DNA from: Alphaproteobacteria bacterium
GTDB taxonomy: Bacteria; Pseudomonadota; Alphaproteobacteria; Geminicoccales; Geminicoccaceae
Direction of reading: 5' to 3'
Assembly (NCBI GenBank): GCA_026982705.1
Contig: JALSGP010000007.1
Span: forward strand, 35,792 to 99,791
DNA: 64,000 bases
The position numbers were made by a program, and so were the translations under genes. Under the pieces are notes generated by a model, which was not told the DNA's origin, searched no databases, and saw only the letters and a program-made list of their open reading frames with translations. Position 1 is the stretch's first letter. The number at the start of each line of letters is the position of its first letter. Positions 35,075 to 40,363 of this stretch are shown piece by piece.

Positions 35075-36397
35075 ATGTCCGTCGCCGACCGGCTGCGCCG
35101 CATGCTGGCCGAGGAGCCGGTTTCGTCGCCGGATCCCGACCGCGCCCACGCCGTGCAGGCACTGCTGTGGAGCGGGCCGCGCGCCCTCTACCACTGGGCG
35201 CAGCCGGTGGTGATCCACTGGCGGATCGCGGCTCCCGACGAGCCGGCCGCCTGGGCGCCGGACGGTCCCCGCCCGCGGCCCACCGCCGCCCTGCGGGCGG
35301 CGGCGCGGGCCGCCGCCGCGGCGTGGGAGGCGGTGGCGGAGGTGGACTTCGTGGAGGTCCGCCGCGGTCCGGCGGAGGTGATCCTCGGCGTCGCCGAATT
35401 CCCCGACTGGCGCCGCGACATCGCCTACACCGTCGTCGATCCCGACGGGGCCGACCGCATCCGCGGCGCCGAGGTGTGGCTGGATGCGGGACTCCTGGAC
35501 CGGCTGGCGCCGGGCGAGCTGGGCCGTCTCGCCCTGGTCCACGAGTTCGGCCACGTCCTCGGCCTCGACCATCCCTTCACCGCCGCCGGCGTCTTCGCCC
35601 GCGGCCTCGACGACCGCCGCCACACCGTCATGTCCTACACGCCGGCCGATGCGGCGGAGCTGGGGGGACGGCCGCTGGAACCCTCGGGACCCATGCTCTA
35701 CGACATCGCCGCCGTCCAGACCCTCTACGGGCCCGCCACCGGCTCGACCGGCGACGACGTCTACCGCCTCTCTCCCCGCCGTCCCGAACTGCGCGCCATC
35801 TGGGACGCGGGGGGCCACGACCGCATCGATGCCGGCAATCAGCGGCTGCCGGTGGAGATCGACCTGCGCGAGGGGGCCTGGTCCAGCATCGGGCCGGCGG
35901 CGCCCGGGGCCGGGACGCCGGCCCGTGCCAATCTCGTGATCGCCTTCGGCAGCGCCATCGAGGATGCCCGCGGCGGCCGCGGTGACGATCGCATCCACGG
36001 CAACCATCTCGGCAATCGCCTGGTGGGCGGGCGCGGCGACGATCTGCTGGTGGGCGCCGGCGGCGACGACCGCCTGCGGGGCGGCTCCGGCGACGACGTG
36101 CTGGCGGGAGGTCCCGGCGACGACCGGCTCGTGGGCGGGCGCGGCCTCGATTTGGCGGTGGTGGAGGGGGATTTCGCCGACTTCGCCCTCACCGGCCGCG
36201 GCCGGCGCCTGTGGCTGGAGGATCTGGATCCGGCCGACGGCGATCTGGGCCGTGATCGCCTCGTCGGGATCGAGCGCGTCCTCTTCGACGACGGCGTGCT
36301 GGTGCTGGACGGCGGTACGCCCCGCTTCCACCCGCTGGCCGACCCCGCCATCGAGAGGCTGCTCGCCCCCTTCGATCCCGCCGGCTTCGTGGGCTGA
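35075..36397 (+). CDS. Secreted serralysin-like zinc metalloprotease with RTX repeats
   Basis: 440 residues with no classical signal peptide. The zinc site is His156-Glu157-His160-His166 in HEFGHVLGLDH, with the Met-turn at Met186 (VMSYTP): family M10, serralysin type. Residues about 315-360 hold calcium-binding nonapeptides (GGRGDDLLVGAGGDD), followed by a C-terminal beta domain. This is the layout of proteins exported by type I secretion. No transporter or inhibitor gene is adjacent. Two hairpins sit in the leader, suggesting tight control. SD GAGGG is 8 bases before the ATG. Confidence 0.9.
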   Translation: MSVADRLRRMLAEEPVSSPDPDRAHAVQALLWSGPRALYHWAQPVVIHWRIAAPDEPAAWAPDGPRPRPTAALRAAARAAAAAWEAVAEVDFVEVRRGPAEVILGVAEFPDWRRDIAYTVVDPDGADRIRGAEVWLDAGLLDRLAPGELGRLALVHEFGHVLGLDHPFTAAGVFARGLDDRRHTVMSYTPADAAELGGRPLEPSGPMLYDIAAVQTLYGPATGSTGDDVYRLSPRRPELRAIWDAGGHDRIDAGNQRLPVEIDLREGAWSSIGPAAPGAGTPARANLVIAFGSAIEDARGGRGDDRIHGNHLGNRLVGGRGDDLLVGAGGDDRLRGGSGDDVLAGGPGDDRLVGGRGLDLAVVEGDFADFALTGRGRRLWLEDLDPADGDLGRDRLVGIERVLFDDGVLVLDGGTPRFHPLADPAIERLLAPFDPAGFVG

Positions 36398-36399
36398 AC

Positions 36400-37605
36400 T
36401 CAGGGCGTGGCCGGCTCCGGCACCGCCCGCCGCATGGCCGCCACGCACAGCCCCGCCACCAGCAGCAGCCCCGGCAGTGCCAGCAGGTTCATGGCCTGCC
36501 AGCCCAGCGCCTCGTGGAGCATGCCGGAGGTGGTGGCCGACAGGGTGACGCCGGTGAACAGCAGCAGATCGTTGAGACCCTGGACCTTGGCCTTCTCCTC
36601 GGGACCGTGGCAGGCGGTCAGCAGGGTGGTGCCGCCGATGAACATGAAGTTCCAGCCGACGCCGAGCAGGAACAGGGCGACGAAGAAGTTGGTCACCGCC
36701 ACCCCGGCCTCCGCCACCGCCACGGTGACGAGATTGAGGAGCACGCCGGCCAGGATCACCCGGTGCGCCCCGAAGCGGGCGATCAGATGGCCGGTGAAGA
36801 AGCTGGGCAGGAACATGCCCACCACGTGGGCCTGGATCACCGTGGCGGTGTCGGCGAAGGCGTGGCCGCAGGCCATCATGGCGAGGGGCGTGGCGCTCAT
36901 GAGCAGGTTCATGGTGACATAGCCCACCAGCGCCGCCGCCACGGCGGTGACGAAGCCGGGGGTGCGGACGATGGCGGCGAGGGGGCGGCCGCCGGCCGCC
37001 CGCACCGTCGCCGGCGGCCGCGGGATGTCGAGTCCGGCCAGCACCAGAACGGACAGCAGCCCCACCGCCGCCACCACCAGATAGCTGCCGAGGAAGACGT
37101 AGGGCGGGATCAGCTCGGCGGTGGCGCGGGCGATCTGGGGGCCGGCCACGCCGGCGACGATGCCGCCGGCCAGCACCCAGCTGATGGCGCGGGCGCGCCA
37201 GGCGTCGCGGCGGGCGGGCGCCATCACCTCGGCCGCATCGGCCGCCGAGAAACGGTAGTACTGGGCGGTGGCGGCGAAGACGCCGTAGAGGAAGCTGGCG
37301 AGGACGAACAGCCAGAAGGCGGCCCGGTAGACGGCGAGGGCCATGAGCAGGCCGGCCACCGTACCGAGGACGGCCCCCAATTGCAACCCCGCCCGCCGAC
37401 CGAAGCGCTGCATGAAGAAGGAGGCCGGCATGGTGGAGACCATGGTGCCCAGGAACTGGGCCCCCAGCGGCAGGGTGGCGAGCCAGGGGAGCGGCGCGTA
37501 CTGCAGCCCCACCAGAGAGGAGGTGCTGATCATGGTGGTGTTGGCGACGAAGAAGAGGGCCTGGGCCGTCGCCAGCACCAGCACGTTGGCGAGATAGCGG
37601 CGCAC
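36400..37605 (-). CDS. MFS transporter
   Basis: About 401 residues with twelve membrane helices. The loop after helix 2 (MQRFGRRAGLQLGA) is the major facilitator signature, and the second half repeats it weakly (LIARFGAHRVILAG). A short charged loop lies between the halves. The substrate cannot be predicted. The GTG at 37605 is chosen for GGGGAG 6 bases upstream; GTG at 37638 has no SD. The gene ends 2 bases from the convergent metalloprotease gene. Confidence 0.88.
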   Translation of the reverse strand: MRRYLANVLVLATAQALFFVANTTMISTSSLVGLQYAPLPWLATLPLGAQFLGTMVSTMPASFFMQRFGRRAGLQLGAVLGTVAGLLMALAVYRAAFWLFVLASFLYGVFAATAQYYRFSAADAAEVMAPARRDAWRARAISWVLAGGIVAGVAGPQIARATAELIPPYVFLGSYLVVAAVGLLSVLVLAGLDIPRPPATVRAAGGRPLAAIVRTPGFVTAVAAALVGYVTMNLLMSATPLAMMACGHAFADTATVIQAHVVGMFLPSFFTGHLIARFGAHRVILAGVLLNLVTVAVAEAGVAVTNFFVALFLLGVGWNFMFIGGTTLLTACHGPEEKAKVQGLNDLLLFTGVTLSATTSGMLHEALGWQAMNLLALPGLLLVAGLCVAAMRRAVPEPATP

Positions 37606-37680
37606 CTGCGGCTCCCCGCGGCCGGATCCCGCCGGCACTTTAGCGGTCGCGGATGGACGGGAAAAGCGCCGCCGTTCCCC

Positions 37681-38751
37681 TCAGTCCCCGGTGCGGTCGC
37701 GGCGGCGGAAGCGGAGGGCGCCGTCGGATCCCAGCTCCCGGTCCAGTTCGCCCCGCCGCCACAGATGCTGGAGATGGGCGTAGGTCTCGCCCAGGGCGAA
37801 GCCGAGCTGGCTGCGGTCGATGGCGAAGTCGAACAGGGCCGGCATCACCTCGTAGACGGTGCGGGGCCGGTCGCAGGCGGCGAGGGCGCGGGCGAGGCGG
37901 GCCTCGTGATGCGCCGCCAGCTCGTCCAGTCGCCGGTGGAGACCGCGGAAGGGCCGGCCGTGGGAGGGCAGCACCAGGAGATCGGGGGCGAGCGGCCGGT
38001 AGCGGTCGAGGGAGGCGAGGAAGTCGGCCAGCACGTCCGCCTCCGGCATGCTCGGCGGCACGCTCACCACCGGGCTGATGCGGGGCAGGATCTGATCGGC
38101 GGCGATCAGAAGGCCGGCCGCCTCGTCCACCAGCGTCACCATCTCCGGCGCGTGCCCCTCGCCCACGATCACCCGGAAGGTGAAGGGTCCCACCGCGAGA
38201 AGATCGCCATGGCGCAGGCGCCGATGATGGCCGGGCGGCGGCCCGGCCCGGGTCCGCCAGAGATTGCCGGCGGCACGGCGCGCCCGGATCAGCTCCTCCG
38301 GCAGGCCCGCCCGCCGGTCGTAGCGCTCGTAGGCACGGTCGAACTCGGCGCTGGTGTCCAGGGCCAGCATGCGCGCCATCAGCCACTCGCTGCGGGCAGC
38401 CCACAGCTCGGCACCGGTGATGCCACACAGCCAGCCGGCGAGCCCGATGTGGTCGGGGTGGTAGTGGGTGGCGATCACCCGCCGGAGCGGGCGGTGACGG
38501 AAGGGCCCCTCCAGCACCCGTCGCCAGACCGCCCGCGTCTCGGCGTCGTCGAACCCGGTGTCGATCACCGTGAGGGTGCCGTCCTCCTCCTCGATCAGCC
38601 ATGCGTTGACGTGATCGAGACGGAGCGGCAGCCGCAGCCGCAGCCACCAGAGGCCCGGCATCAGGGCCACGGGCTCGCCGCAGGGCGGCGCGGGACGGGG
38701 ATGGTCGAGGGAACCGGCGCGCGCCGGGCACGCCGCCGCATCGCTGGGCAA
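37681..38751 (-). CDS. MBL-fold metallo-hydrolase
   Basis: A 356-residue protein: the metallo-beta-lactamase core with THYHPDHIGLAGWL and later ligands in GEGHAPEMV, LIAADQILPR and LPSHGRPF, then a C-terminal helical domain (about residues 275-340) as in the LACTB2-like branch. The TTG at 38751 is chosen because it lies 4 bases after the upstream stop and 8 bases after GGAGGAG; the ATG at 38661 lacks an SD. It is the third gene of the run ligase remnant, alpha/beta hydrolase, MBL hydrolase. The substrate is unknown, perhaps a thioester or lactone of an aromatic pathway. Confidence 0.8.
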   Translation of the reverse strand: MPSDAAACPARAGSLDHPRPAPPCGEPVALMPGLWWLRLRLPLRLDHVNAWLIEEEDGTLTVIDTGFDDAETRAVWRRVLEGPFRHRPLRRVIATHYHPDHIGLAGWLCGITGAELWAARSEWLMARMLALDTSAEFDRAYERYDRRAGLPEELIRARRAAGNLWRTRAGPPPGHHRRLRHGDLLAVGPFTFRVIVGEGHAPEMVTLVDEAAGLLIAADQILPRISPVVSVPPSMPEADVLADFLASLDRYRPLAPDLLVLPSHGRPFRGLHRRLDELAAHHEARLARALAACDRPRTVYEVMPALFDFAIDRSQLGFALGETYAHLQHLWRRGELDRELGSDGALRFRRRDRTGD

Positions 38752-38755
38752 GATC

Positions 38756-39586
38756 CTACTCCTCCCCCTGGTTGGCGGCGAGCGGGGGGCGGGCCTCGTG
38801 GAGGCGGAACAGCCGGTCGGTGAAGTCCGCCACCGCCCGCAGCACCTCGTCCGGCCGCTCCAGATGGGGCGCGTGCCCGGTCTCCGCAAGCGCGAGGACG
38901 TCCACGGGGCCGTACGACTCCGCCTCCGCCGCCTCGGCGTGGGCCAGGGTGCCGTAGGGATCGGCCAATCCCTGCACGATCAGCATGGGCACGCGGATGT
39001 AGGGGAGGTACTCGCGCAGGTCCCAGTCGCGGAAGCGCGGATCCAGCCAGGTCTCGCACCAGCCGCGGAAGGCCACGTCCACATGGTCGTGCCAGCGGGC
39101 GAGACGGGCGCGCAGGTCTCCCGTCTCGTAGCGGCGGCGGGTCTCCTCGATGGCGGCGACGGTCACCTCTTCCACGAAGAAGTGGGGCGCCAGCAGCACC
39201 AGTCCCCGCACCCGCAGGTCCCCCACCGCCCCGGCATGGACGGTGGCCACCGAGGCGCCGTCGCTGTGCCCCAGCAGGATGCCGCGGCGGAAGCCGATGG
39301 CGTCCAGCAGCTGCGGCAGGAACGTCCGCGCCTCCCGCTCCATGAAGTCGAGCGGGCGCGGCAGCGGCACCGGATCGGAGCGACCGTAACCGGGCCGGGA
39401 GAAGGCGAAGACGCCGAGCCCGGTGGCCGCCTGCAGCCGCTCGGGGAAGTCCTTCCACAGACCGAGACAACCCAGGCCCTCGTGCAGCAGCACCACCGTC
39501 GGCGCCCGCTCCGGGGACGGGCCGAGATGCCGGTACTCGATGCCGCAGCCGTCCACCACCAGTCGGCCGGAACCCGCCTCGATCAC
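38756..39586 (-). CDS. Alpha/beta-fold hydrolase
   Basis: 276 residues. The oxyanion segment LLHEGLG is near residue 34, nucleophile Ser108 lies in GHSDGAS, and the acid (GLADPYG) and His (ETGHAPHLER) complete the triad. Close relatives occur in aerobic benzoyl-CoA (box) and related aromatic-acid clusters, where they are thought to salvage CoA esters or cleave ring-opened products. The GTG at 39586 overlaps the stop of the ligase remnant (GTGA) and has GGGGAGG in front, so its translation still depends on the damaged upstream gene. Confidence 0.85.
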   Translation of the reverse strand: MIEAGSGRLVVDGCGIEYRHLGPSPERAPTVVLLHEGLGCLGLWKDFPERLQAATGLGVFAFSRPGYGRSDPVPLPRPLDFMEREARTFLPQLLDAIGFRRGILLGHSDGASVATVHAGAVGDLRVRGLVLLAPHFFVEEVTVAAIEETRRRYETGDLRARLARWHDHVDVAFRGWCETWLDPRFRDWDLREYLPYIRVPMLIVQGLADPYGTLAHAEAAEAESYGPVDVLALAETGHAPHLERPDEVLRAVADFTDRLFRLHEARPPLAANQGEE

Positions 39587-40230
39587 GACCGCACCTCCCC
39601 GTCCGTCCGTTCGCGTTCCCCGAGCCGGAAGCGCTGGATCTCGCCGGTGGCGGTCTCGGGCAGCCGGTCCACGGACTCGATCCAGCGCGGACACTCCCGG
39701 GGCCCCGCCACCGCCTTCACCGGGGCCTGCAGCGCCCGGACCCGCGTCCTCGAAGGCGCCCCGCGCTCGCGCGGCACCACGAAGGCCTCGGGCTCGCTCG
39801 GCCCGTCGGCGTCGGGGCGACCGATCACCGCCGCCTCCGGCACCGTCTCGGGGTCCACGAGGAGCGATTCCACCTCGCAGGGCGAGACCCGGATGCCGCT
39901 CACCTCGAACATGTCCTCCGCACGGCCGGCATGGTGATACCGGCCCTCCGCGTCGATCCGGTGGCGGTCGGCGGGGATGGTGCACCACCGGTCCGGCGGC
40001 AGCAGGGTGGCGACGGCCACCGGTACCATGCCGGCATGGAGCGCGCGCCGGAAGACCACCGGAACGTCCACCGCGTCCCGCAGCGGGAGGGCGATCCGCT
40101 CCTCGCGGCGGACGCCGAGGCGCGCGACCCGCTCGGCCGGTTCCGCCCGGGCGAGACGGCGTCCGGGGTCGGCGAAGACGGTCGGCTGCGCCCGGCCCTG
40201 TTCGAGACGACGCTGGACGAAGAAACGCAT
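39583..40230 (-). pseudogene. Benzoate-CoA-ligase-like gene with large in-frame internal deletion
   Basis: Only 215 codons against about 510-530 for intact aryl-CoA ligases. Residues 1-80 match the start of a benzoate-CoA ligase (RALHAGMVPVAV). Residues 81-215 match its end (RAEDMFEVSGIRVSPCEVE, then CPRWIESVDRLPETATGEIQRF, in parts). The core that binds ATP and the acid, about 300 residues, is missing at the junction near 39990. The catalytic Lys of TATGKIQRF is Glu197, and a shorter deletion lies near residue 30. It cannot form CoA esters. The reading frame, SD (GGGGAGGGG) and stop-start overlap with the hydrolase are all kept, so it may survive only to drive coupled translation, or have a new role. 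Confidence 0.8.
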
Positions 40231-40321
40231 CCCCTCCCCTCGCGGTACGTGGTCCGGACCCGGTGGCGGCGTCCCGGCGCCGCCGACCGGCATTATTTTT
40301 CACCATCGGGGACGCGGCAAG

Positions 40322-40363
40322 AGAAATATGTTTCTTGATGCGGCGCGACGCCGCGGCTATGCT
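40322..40363 (+). promoter_or_regulatory. Promoter with operator-like repeat for the ABC transporter operon
   Basis: TTGATG (40335-40340), an exact 17-bp spacer and TATGCT (40358-40363) form a good promoter about 80 bases before the ATG. The inverted repeat AGAAA-TATG-TTTCT (40322-40335) abuts the -35 element. This AT-rich patch between two divergent operons is the likely site of a shared regulator. Confidence 0.6.

Follow-up and report, generated by a model that had tools for sequence, protein, structure and literature searches.

In ANL enzymes the core holds the nucleotide site and most of the acyl site, and among these enzymes the benzoate-CoA ligases (family model TIGR02262; solved relatives 2V7B and 4EAT) are the family closest to the locus described here. 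Two other kinds of system are relevant to it: translationally coupled gene pairs, which have ATGA or GTGA overlaps, and bacterial pseudogenes, in which a disrupted frame is usual, though not required. For the genomic setting, one study describes box/bcl benzoate divergons with a putative benzoate ABC transporter and BoxR/BzdR sites with TGCA repeats (PMC6449761).

The locus lies in a stretch of 64,000 nucleotides (here called the window) from a member of the Geminicoccaceae, and it resembles each of these systems in part. Two pieces of a ligase frame align to an intact member of the benzoate-CoA ligase family in a genome of the same genus (G002), but the frame has lost the AMP-binding domain, with 292 codons of the core, and the catalytic lysine. 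As in translationally coupled pairs, there is an overlap with the following gene (an alpha/beta hydrolase) and an internal ribosome-binding site; here, however, the upstream partner is a decayed gene, and the coupling is predicted from sequence. As in the box/bcl divergons of PMC6449761, the ligase gene (intact in G002) stands beside a putative ABC transporter operon, but no TGCA repeat occurs in the palindrome that precedes the remnant, and in this the palindrome is unlike the BoxR/BzdR sites given there. Like other bacterial pseudogenes, the frame has suffered deletions, has lost near-invariant residues and has evolved faster than the adjoining gene; it differs from the usual ones in being open throughout and in decaying towards G+C. 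The reading that we hold with considerable confidence is that this is a decayed remnant of a predicted benzoate-CoA-ligase-family gene, likely without a working protein, and that its frame has probably stayed open mainly in a passive way, through drift towards G+C.

Structure and relatives of the ligase remnant

Comparison within the genus covered four genomes, the window's own included. G002 has an intact ligase at the same place (539 codons from the ATG used), in the gene order MFS-MBL-hydrolase-ligase followed by the divergent ABC operon and QOR, and its neighbouring genes match the window on both sides. The genes of the locus and the parts of the remnant are as follows:

36400..37638, minus strand: predicted MFS-type transporter, which we take to be one from the look of its sequence; same order in G002
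37681..38721, minus strand: MBL-fold metallo-hydrolase, its start set by the part of a 402-aa frame that is conserved in G002
38756..39586, minus strand: alpha/beta hydrolase, 276 aa, under purifying selection
39583..40230, minus strand: benzoate-CoA-ligase-family gene remnant P0002, an open frame of 215 codons
39973..40230, minus strand: N-terminal piece, residues 1-86, aligning to G002 ligase codons 1 and 25-116 minus 61-67
39583..39972, minus strand: C-terminal piece, residues 87-215 and then the stop, with the AMP-binding_C domain, aligning to G002 codons 409/410-539
39972..39973, minus strand: approximate junction of the 292-codon core deletion, common to P0003 (see below)
40113..40114, minus strand: approximate junction of a 21-nt (7-codon) deletion, present in the window and absent from P0003
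39640..39642, minus strand: codon 197, GAG (Glu), replacing the catalytic Lys codon
40447..41616, plus strand: substrate-binding protein, first gene of the divergent ABC transporter operon

Elsewhere in the window, positions 35075-36397 hold a 440-aa frame with the motif HEFGHVLGLDH, which we take to be like a zinc-protease motif, and with GGxGDD repeats, presumably as in serralysin-type RTX proteases.

In a Pfam search the remnant shows AMP-binding_C alone (PF13193, residues 119-196, 44.1 bits against a cut-off of 24.5); the AMP-binding domain PF00501 was not found by that search. Among NCBIfam models TIGR02262 (benz_CoA_lig) fits best, with 167.5 bits, which is far below the cut-off of 375.25, while the intact G002 ligase reaches 770.9 bits and has as its best solved relative 2V7B, a benzoate-CoA ligase. 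The remnant therefore falls outside TIGR02262 on score, on the catalytic lysine (of the C-terminal TGK motif) and on PF00501, and agrees with the family on PF13193.

An initial annotation, made from the letters of the window, had described an open frame with some 300 core residues missing and the catalytic lysine changed to Glu197, and alignment to G002 bears this out: the frame (40230..39583, minus strand) runs from an ATG start to a TGA stop over 215 aa with no internal stop, 292 codons are absent between about 117 and 409 of G002, and Glu197 aligns with G002 Lys519, a position at which all 120 intact homologues have Lys. It had also taken the frame for the first 80 and the last 135 residues of a ligase, joined through two in-frame deletions. 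The two pieces are real, but “first 80” does not hold literally, given that codons 2-24 and 61-67 are gone as well, and with two further codons missing near the end the length differences from G002 number four (23, 7, 292 and 2 codons), all in frame.

The annotation had further suggested looking for the same short form in related genomes, and one was found in a second genome. P0003 is a protein of 222 aa from another contig (176,559 bases), 92% identical to the remnant, which at the protein level has the first deletion and the core deletion as in the window and scores 181 bits against TIGR02262 (cut-off 375.25). The 7 residues are still present in P0003, and the 21-nt deletion is thus peculiar to the window. 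The search behind this result was confined to proteins of 0.55-1.75 times the query length and returned two, of which P0003 is the only close one (the other is 46% identical over 54% of the query). A scan of genome contigs with P0003 as the query, which may leave out its own lineage, confirmed at least 7 loci, and those listed are all distant (28-37% identity). Because P0003 has the same core junction, the short form predates the split between the two and is no assembly fault. That point matters since the window's genome is a 48-contig draft and G002 has an intact gene at this very place, as might be expected if a full-length gene had been collapsed in assembly or misread in sequencing. Yet P0003 comes from a different contig and differs from the window at 11 aligned residues as well as by the 7-residue gap, and 27 changes at near-invariant sites flank the junction, which a collapse cannot explain. 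At the protein level, then, P0003 leads us to reject assembly collapse, and an error of either kind is extremely improbable. The initial annotation would have given up its reading if a close relative turned out to carry the gene whole at this locus. G002 does carry it whole, but this reveals the remnant's origin and does not make an artefact of it. An intact orthologue in place of the remnant in a relative is also a mark by which pseudogenes are recognized.

Another short C-terminal piece of a ligase, P0004 (202 aa, on a 32,479-base contig), reads LPETATGEIQR: its catalytic lysine is likewise changed to Glu, and the other lysines of the domain are retained.

Loss of constraint on the protein

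Constraint was gauged on an alignment of both remnants, G002 and 120 full-length homologues (the best 120 of 7998 passing; P0005 is nearly the same as the G002 protein), in which a site was called near-invariant where at least 95% of homologues agree. There are 81 such sites. The window differs from the consensus at 27 and P0003 at 28, with 25 common to both; G002 differs at 2, and intact homologues at a median of 1 and a maximum of 5. Between the window and G002, changes fall at 26/81 of the near-invariant sites and, by decreasing conservation, at 8/29, 20/56 and 23/40 of the others, so that the chance of change barely depends on conservation class until the most variable sites are reached. 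At positions 1 and 2 of near-invariant codons 28 of 158 sites have changed (0.177 per site), which is about half the divergence between the window and G002 at third positions (74/215), as expected of free sequence on one of two branches. The protein tree gives the remnant stem a length of 0.96 against 0.0085 for G002; in the hydrolase tree the end branches measure 0.096 for the window and 0.13 for G002. Pairwise omega between the window and G002 is 0.49 for the remnant (bootstrap 0.35-0.70, an interval that overlaps those of less constrained neighbours) and 0.16-0.31 for eight neighbouring genes, and the remnant's value is lowered by the constraint acting on its G002 partner. As judged from these comparisons, purifying selection on the remnant protein appears to have been lost: there is no clear constraint.

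A contrary proposal of the initial annotation was that the short protein has been kept for a new role, for example as a regulator binding CoA esters, which would presuppose that the C-terminal ANL domain is still in use. AlphaFold does model that domain confidently (mean pLDDT 68.5 overall, below 50 for most of residues 1-56, 84-94 by blocks over 111-210), and in a structure comparison the model matches ligase C domains. The alignment behind the model, however, consists of 18 intact ligases and 2 remnants, so it shows ancestry and not that the remnant folds. That the short form is common to two genomes would likewise suit a function, but of the 11 residues at which the window and P0003 differ, 6 belong to near-invariant sites. 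With the core, the nucleotide site and the larger part of the acyl site have been lost; Leu has become Pro at 131, 144 and 153, and Leu163 has become Arg, all within the C domain. Near-invariant sites have been lost like most others, and the N part, which is no domain on its own, has decayed like the C part, whether near-invariant sites (6/20 vs 19/59 lost), FILMV residues (8/29 vs 9/31 changed) or K/Y/W/N/H/Q residues (8/10 vs 17/22 changed) are counted. On the equal decay of the two parts and the Leu-to-Pro changes a CoA-ester regulator was rejected, and we consider a new role of the domain very unlikely.

A further argument for such a role, and one that also speaks against plain drift, is that second codon positions have changed less than first ones. 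Among AT sites at near-invariant codons, 13/25 first and 9/43 second positions have changed (Fisher 0.0146), and over all aligned codons the excess persists within next-base context (z 2.9). Relative to a neutral simulation, K/Y/W/N/H/Q residues changed more often than expected (13/16, P 0.012), and FILMV and DE residues somewhat less often (5/21, P 0.07; 1/9, P 0.09). Fold constraint on the C domain was tried as the source of this asymmetry and rejected, the N part showing the same class pattern. It may stem from the mutational context or from a period in which constraint was only partial.

An intact ligase elsewhere in the genome, which the annotation had proposed to look for, did not appear: in the window's own genome (99.66% complete) no place passes the TIGR02262 cut-off, the best reaching 358 bits against 375.25, and for that reason no second benzoate-CoA ligase is evident. 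Rescue by a paralogue was set aside on this ground, although a near-miss paralogue could still do the job. The region just under the cut-off is a paralogous ligase-like one at G000:C33:205423-206910.

Decay towards G+C and the open frame

For bacteria at large, two papers report that GC>AT changes are in excess or that mutation is AT-biased, and that a counter-force keeps G+C high (PMC2936529; PMC2936535). The first cites a GC>AT excess in pseudogenes of Mycobacterium leprae (PMC2936529), and the second holds that pseudogenes should share their own genome's selection on nucleotide content (PMC2936535). The remnant has decayed in the direction opposite to the M. leprae pseudogenes as cited there. 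Measured at positions 1 and 2 of the 79 near-invariant codons at which G002 equals the consensus, AT>GC changes affect 22 of 68 AT sites and GC>AT changes 2 of 90 GC sites (Fisher 1.1e-7). This direction of change explains which residues were lost: of 8 lysines in the aligned part six became Glu and one Gln (one is kept), 6/7 tyrosines became His, Arg, Gln or Cys, and 3/5 tryptophans became Arg. By simple arithmetic on 22/68 and 2/90, the implied equilibrium is a G+C content of about 0.94; the third positions of neighbouring genes in the window stand at 91-96%, and the window overall has 74% G+C. Since the remnant decays towards about 94%, near the third positions of its neighbours, the push to G+C at this place needs no coding function. 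Decay in this direction is compatible with a counter-force acting on the whole genome, be it selection-like or gene conversion, and equally with mutation that is itself GC-biased.

The same spectrum bears on the open frame, which the initial annotation had thought to need selection. When 209 aligned codons were simulated with substitutions drawn from a given spectrum, 59% of runs were free of stops with the remnant's own spectrum and 6% with an unbiased spectrum at the same rate; the pairwise spectrum, an upper bound on change, gave 35%. Moreover, 4 of the 6 reading frames of the remnant are stop-free. With more than half of drifting sequences staying open and most other frames open too, the open frame is weak evidence for selection, and that claim is not supported. 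The lengths of the deletions are more telling and count against pure drift: at a chance of 1/3 each of remaining in frame, the probability under drift of a frame both open and in phase is about 0.59/9=0.07 for the two shared deletions, 0.02 for three and 0.007 for four, figures that are post hoc, the frame having been picked because it is open.

Passive decay could thus have proceeded in three steps. Ligase function would have been lost first; the sequence would then have drifted to the genome's G+C-rich equilibrium, which rarely makes stops; and the frame would thereby have stayed open. Judged by search listings, the literature gave nothing on open or in-frame pseudogenes in G+C-rich bacteria and no truncated benzoate-CoA ligase pseudogenes; going by titles and the starts of abstracts, it also gave nothing on coupling, pseudogenes and in-frame deletions together.

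Putative promoter, hydrolase junction and the leader question

The signals around the remnant are these:

40318..40337, minus strand: AT-rich palindrome CAAGAAACATATTTCTCTTG overlapping the -35 element, identical in G002
40292..40320, minus strand: promoter-like site TTGCCG-17-AATAAT, directed towards the remnant (shuffled sequences gave a mean of 0.0)
40231..40241, minus strand: purine-rich ribosome-binding site of the remnant, GAGGGGAGGGG, with a duplex energy with the anti-SD of -11.7 kcal/mol
39592..39600, minus strand: ribosome-binding site of the hydrolase, GGGGAGGTG, in the remnant's 3′ end, with a duplex energy of -14.7 (-11.2 in G002)
39583..39586, minus strand: GTGA, where the hydrolase GTG start overlaps the remnant's TGA stop; ATGA at the homologous place in G002

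Around the promoter and palindrome (window 40287-40337), 21 + 18 bp are identical in G002 and all 24 AT sites are kept. At the remnant's rate of AT loss the probability of keeping them all is about 8e-5, for a block chosen after seeing it, and transcription control 5′ of the remnant is thus likely still under selection. The palindrome, which occurs at one place in its own genome with up to 3 mismatches allowed and was not seen in the intergenic stretch of a third genome of the genus (G003), is likely the operator of some regulator. From this promoter the only route to the hydrolase runs through the remnant.

The hydrolase itself is conserved: 40 of its sites are invariant across 10 other genomes, and the window and G002 have each changed at 1 of them. 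It seems, as judged by gene content, to need no ligase beside it, because most hydrolase loci show none nearby. Among 12 such loci (the window included) the ligase is intact in 4 (G002, G007, G031, G057) and a remnant in 1; in the other 7 (G001, G003, G016, G028, G029, G044, G055) it was not found within the stretch fetched, which is short for some. In G003 the hydrolase, MBL, ABC and QOR genes are present with no ligase at the locus, and about 120 bases separate the divergent hydrolase and ABC genes (starts as read); that assembly is only 74% complete, yet the contig in question spans the ligase site. In G001 the locus is absent as far as seen, the best match to the substrate-binding protein being 35%. 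The hydrolase tree is poorly resolved (2/9 inner branches well supported) and is compatible both with a loss of the ligase in G003 and with its original absence there.

These arrangements bear on a further explanation of the open frame, in which selection acts on the frame and not on the residues. A stop or frameshift in the remnant would cost the hydrolase and MBL genes their coupling or their expression, by way of the GTGA overlap or of Rho-dependent polarity, so that the remnant would be kept as an open, translated leader. On the reading of passive openness as well, the promoter likely still drives these constrained genes through the remnant, which would be transcribed and translated; ribosomes ending at the GTGA would help the hydrolase start by re-starting there, and translation would shield the leader from Rho. 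Under selection on the frame, the locus would be a natural non-polar deletion mutant, its ligase residues released and its frame guarded as a free-sequence leader delivering ribosomes to the GTGA, a picture that we put forward tentatively.

Several observations are in keeping with it. None of the four length differences shifts the frame, and constraint persists in the genes downstream. The promoter-like block ahead of the remnant recurs without a single difference in G002 (21 + 18 bp, 24 AT sites among them), and the start, the ribosome-binding site and the NTGA overlap lie at homologous places. The strong Shine-Dalgarno sequence before the remnant (-11.7 kcal/mol) and the overlap of its stop with the hydrolase start (GTGA for the ATGA of G002), both reported by the initial annotation, are indeed there. 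Other observations speak against it. Substitutions alone leave the frame open at a rate of about 0.59, and with 4/6 frames stop-free a frameshift would often create no early stop: in the C part, one of the wrong frames is free of stops and the other contains 3. The ribosome-binding site that the hydrolase itself possesses is stronger than the one in G002 (-14.7 vs -11.2), and the G003 hydrolase manages with no leader of this kind. We regard frame-only selection as possible but rather doubtful. The stop/start overlap stands at the place where the intact gene has it, and on these data selection on the frame is indistinguishable from drift. We give higher weight to decay with passive openness, though coupling or Rho shielding may in addition have tilted deletions slightly towards in-frame ones.

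Within one genus, then, one locus is found in three states: whole (G002), gutted (the window) and gone (G003), which makes the hypothesis open to test. Open frames mislead in G+C-rich DNA: a gene that has lost more than half its codons and a third of its near-invariant residues still looks translated, since stops seldom arise under drift towards G+C. The remnant also shows directly how composition pressure acts where protein constraint is absent, and as such it bears on the debate over why G+C-rich bacteria are G+C-rich.
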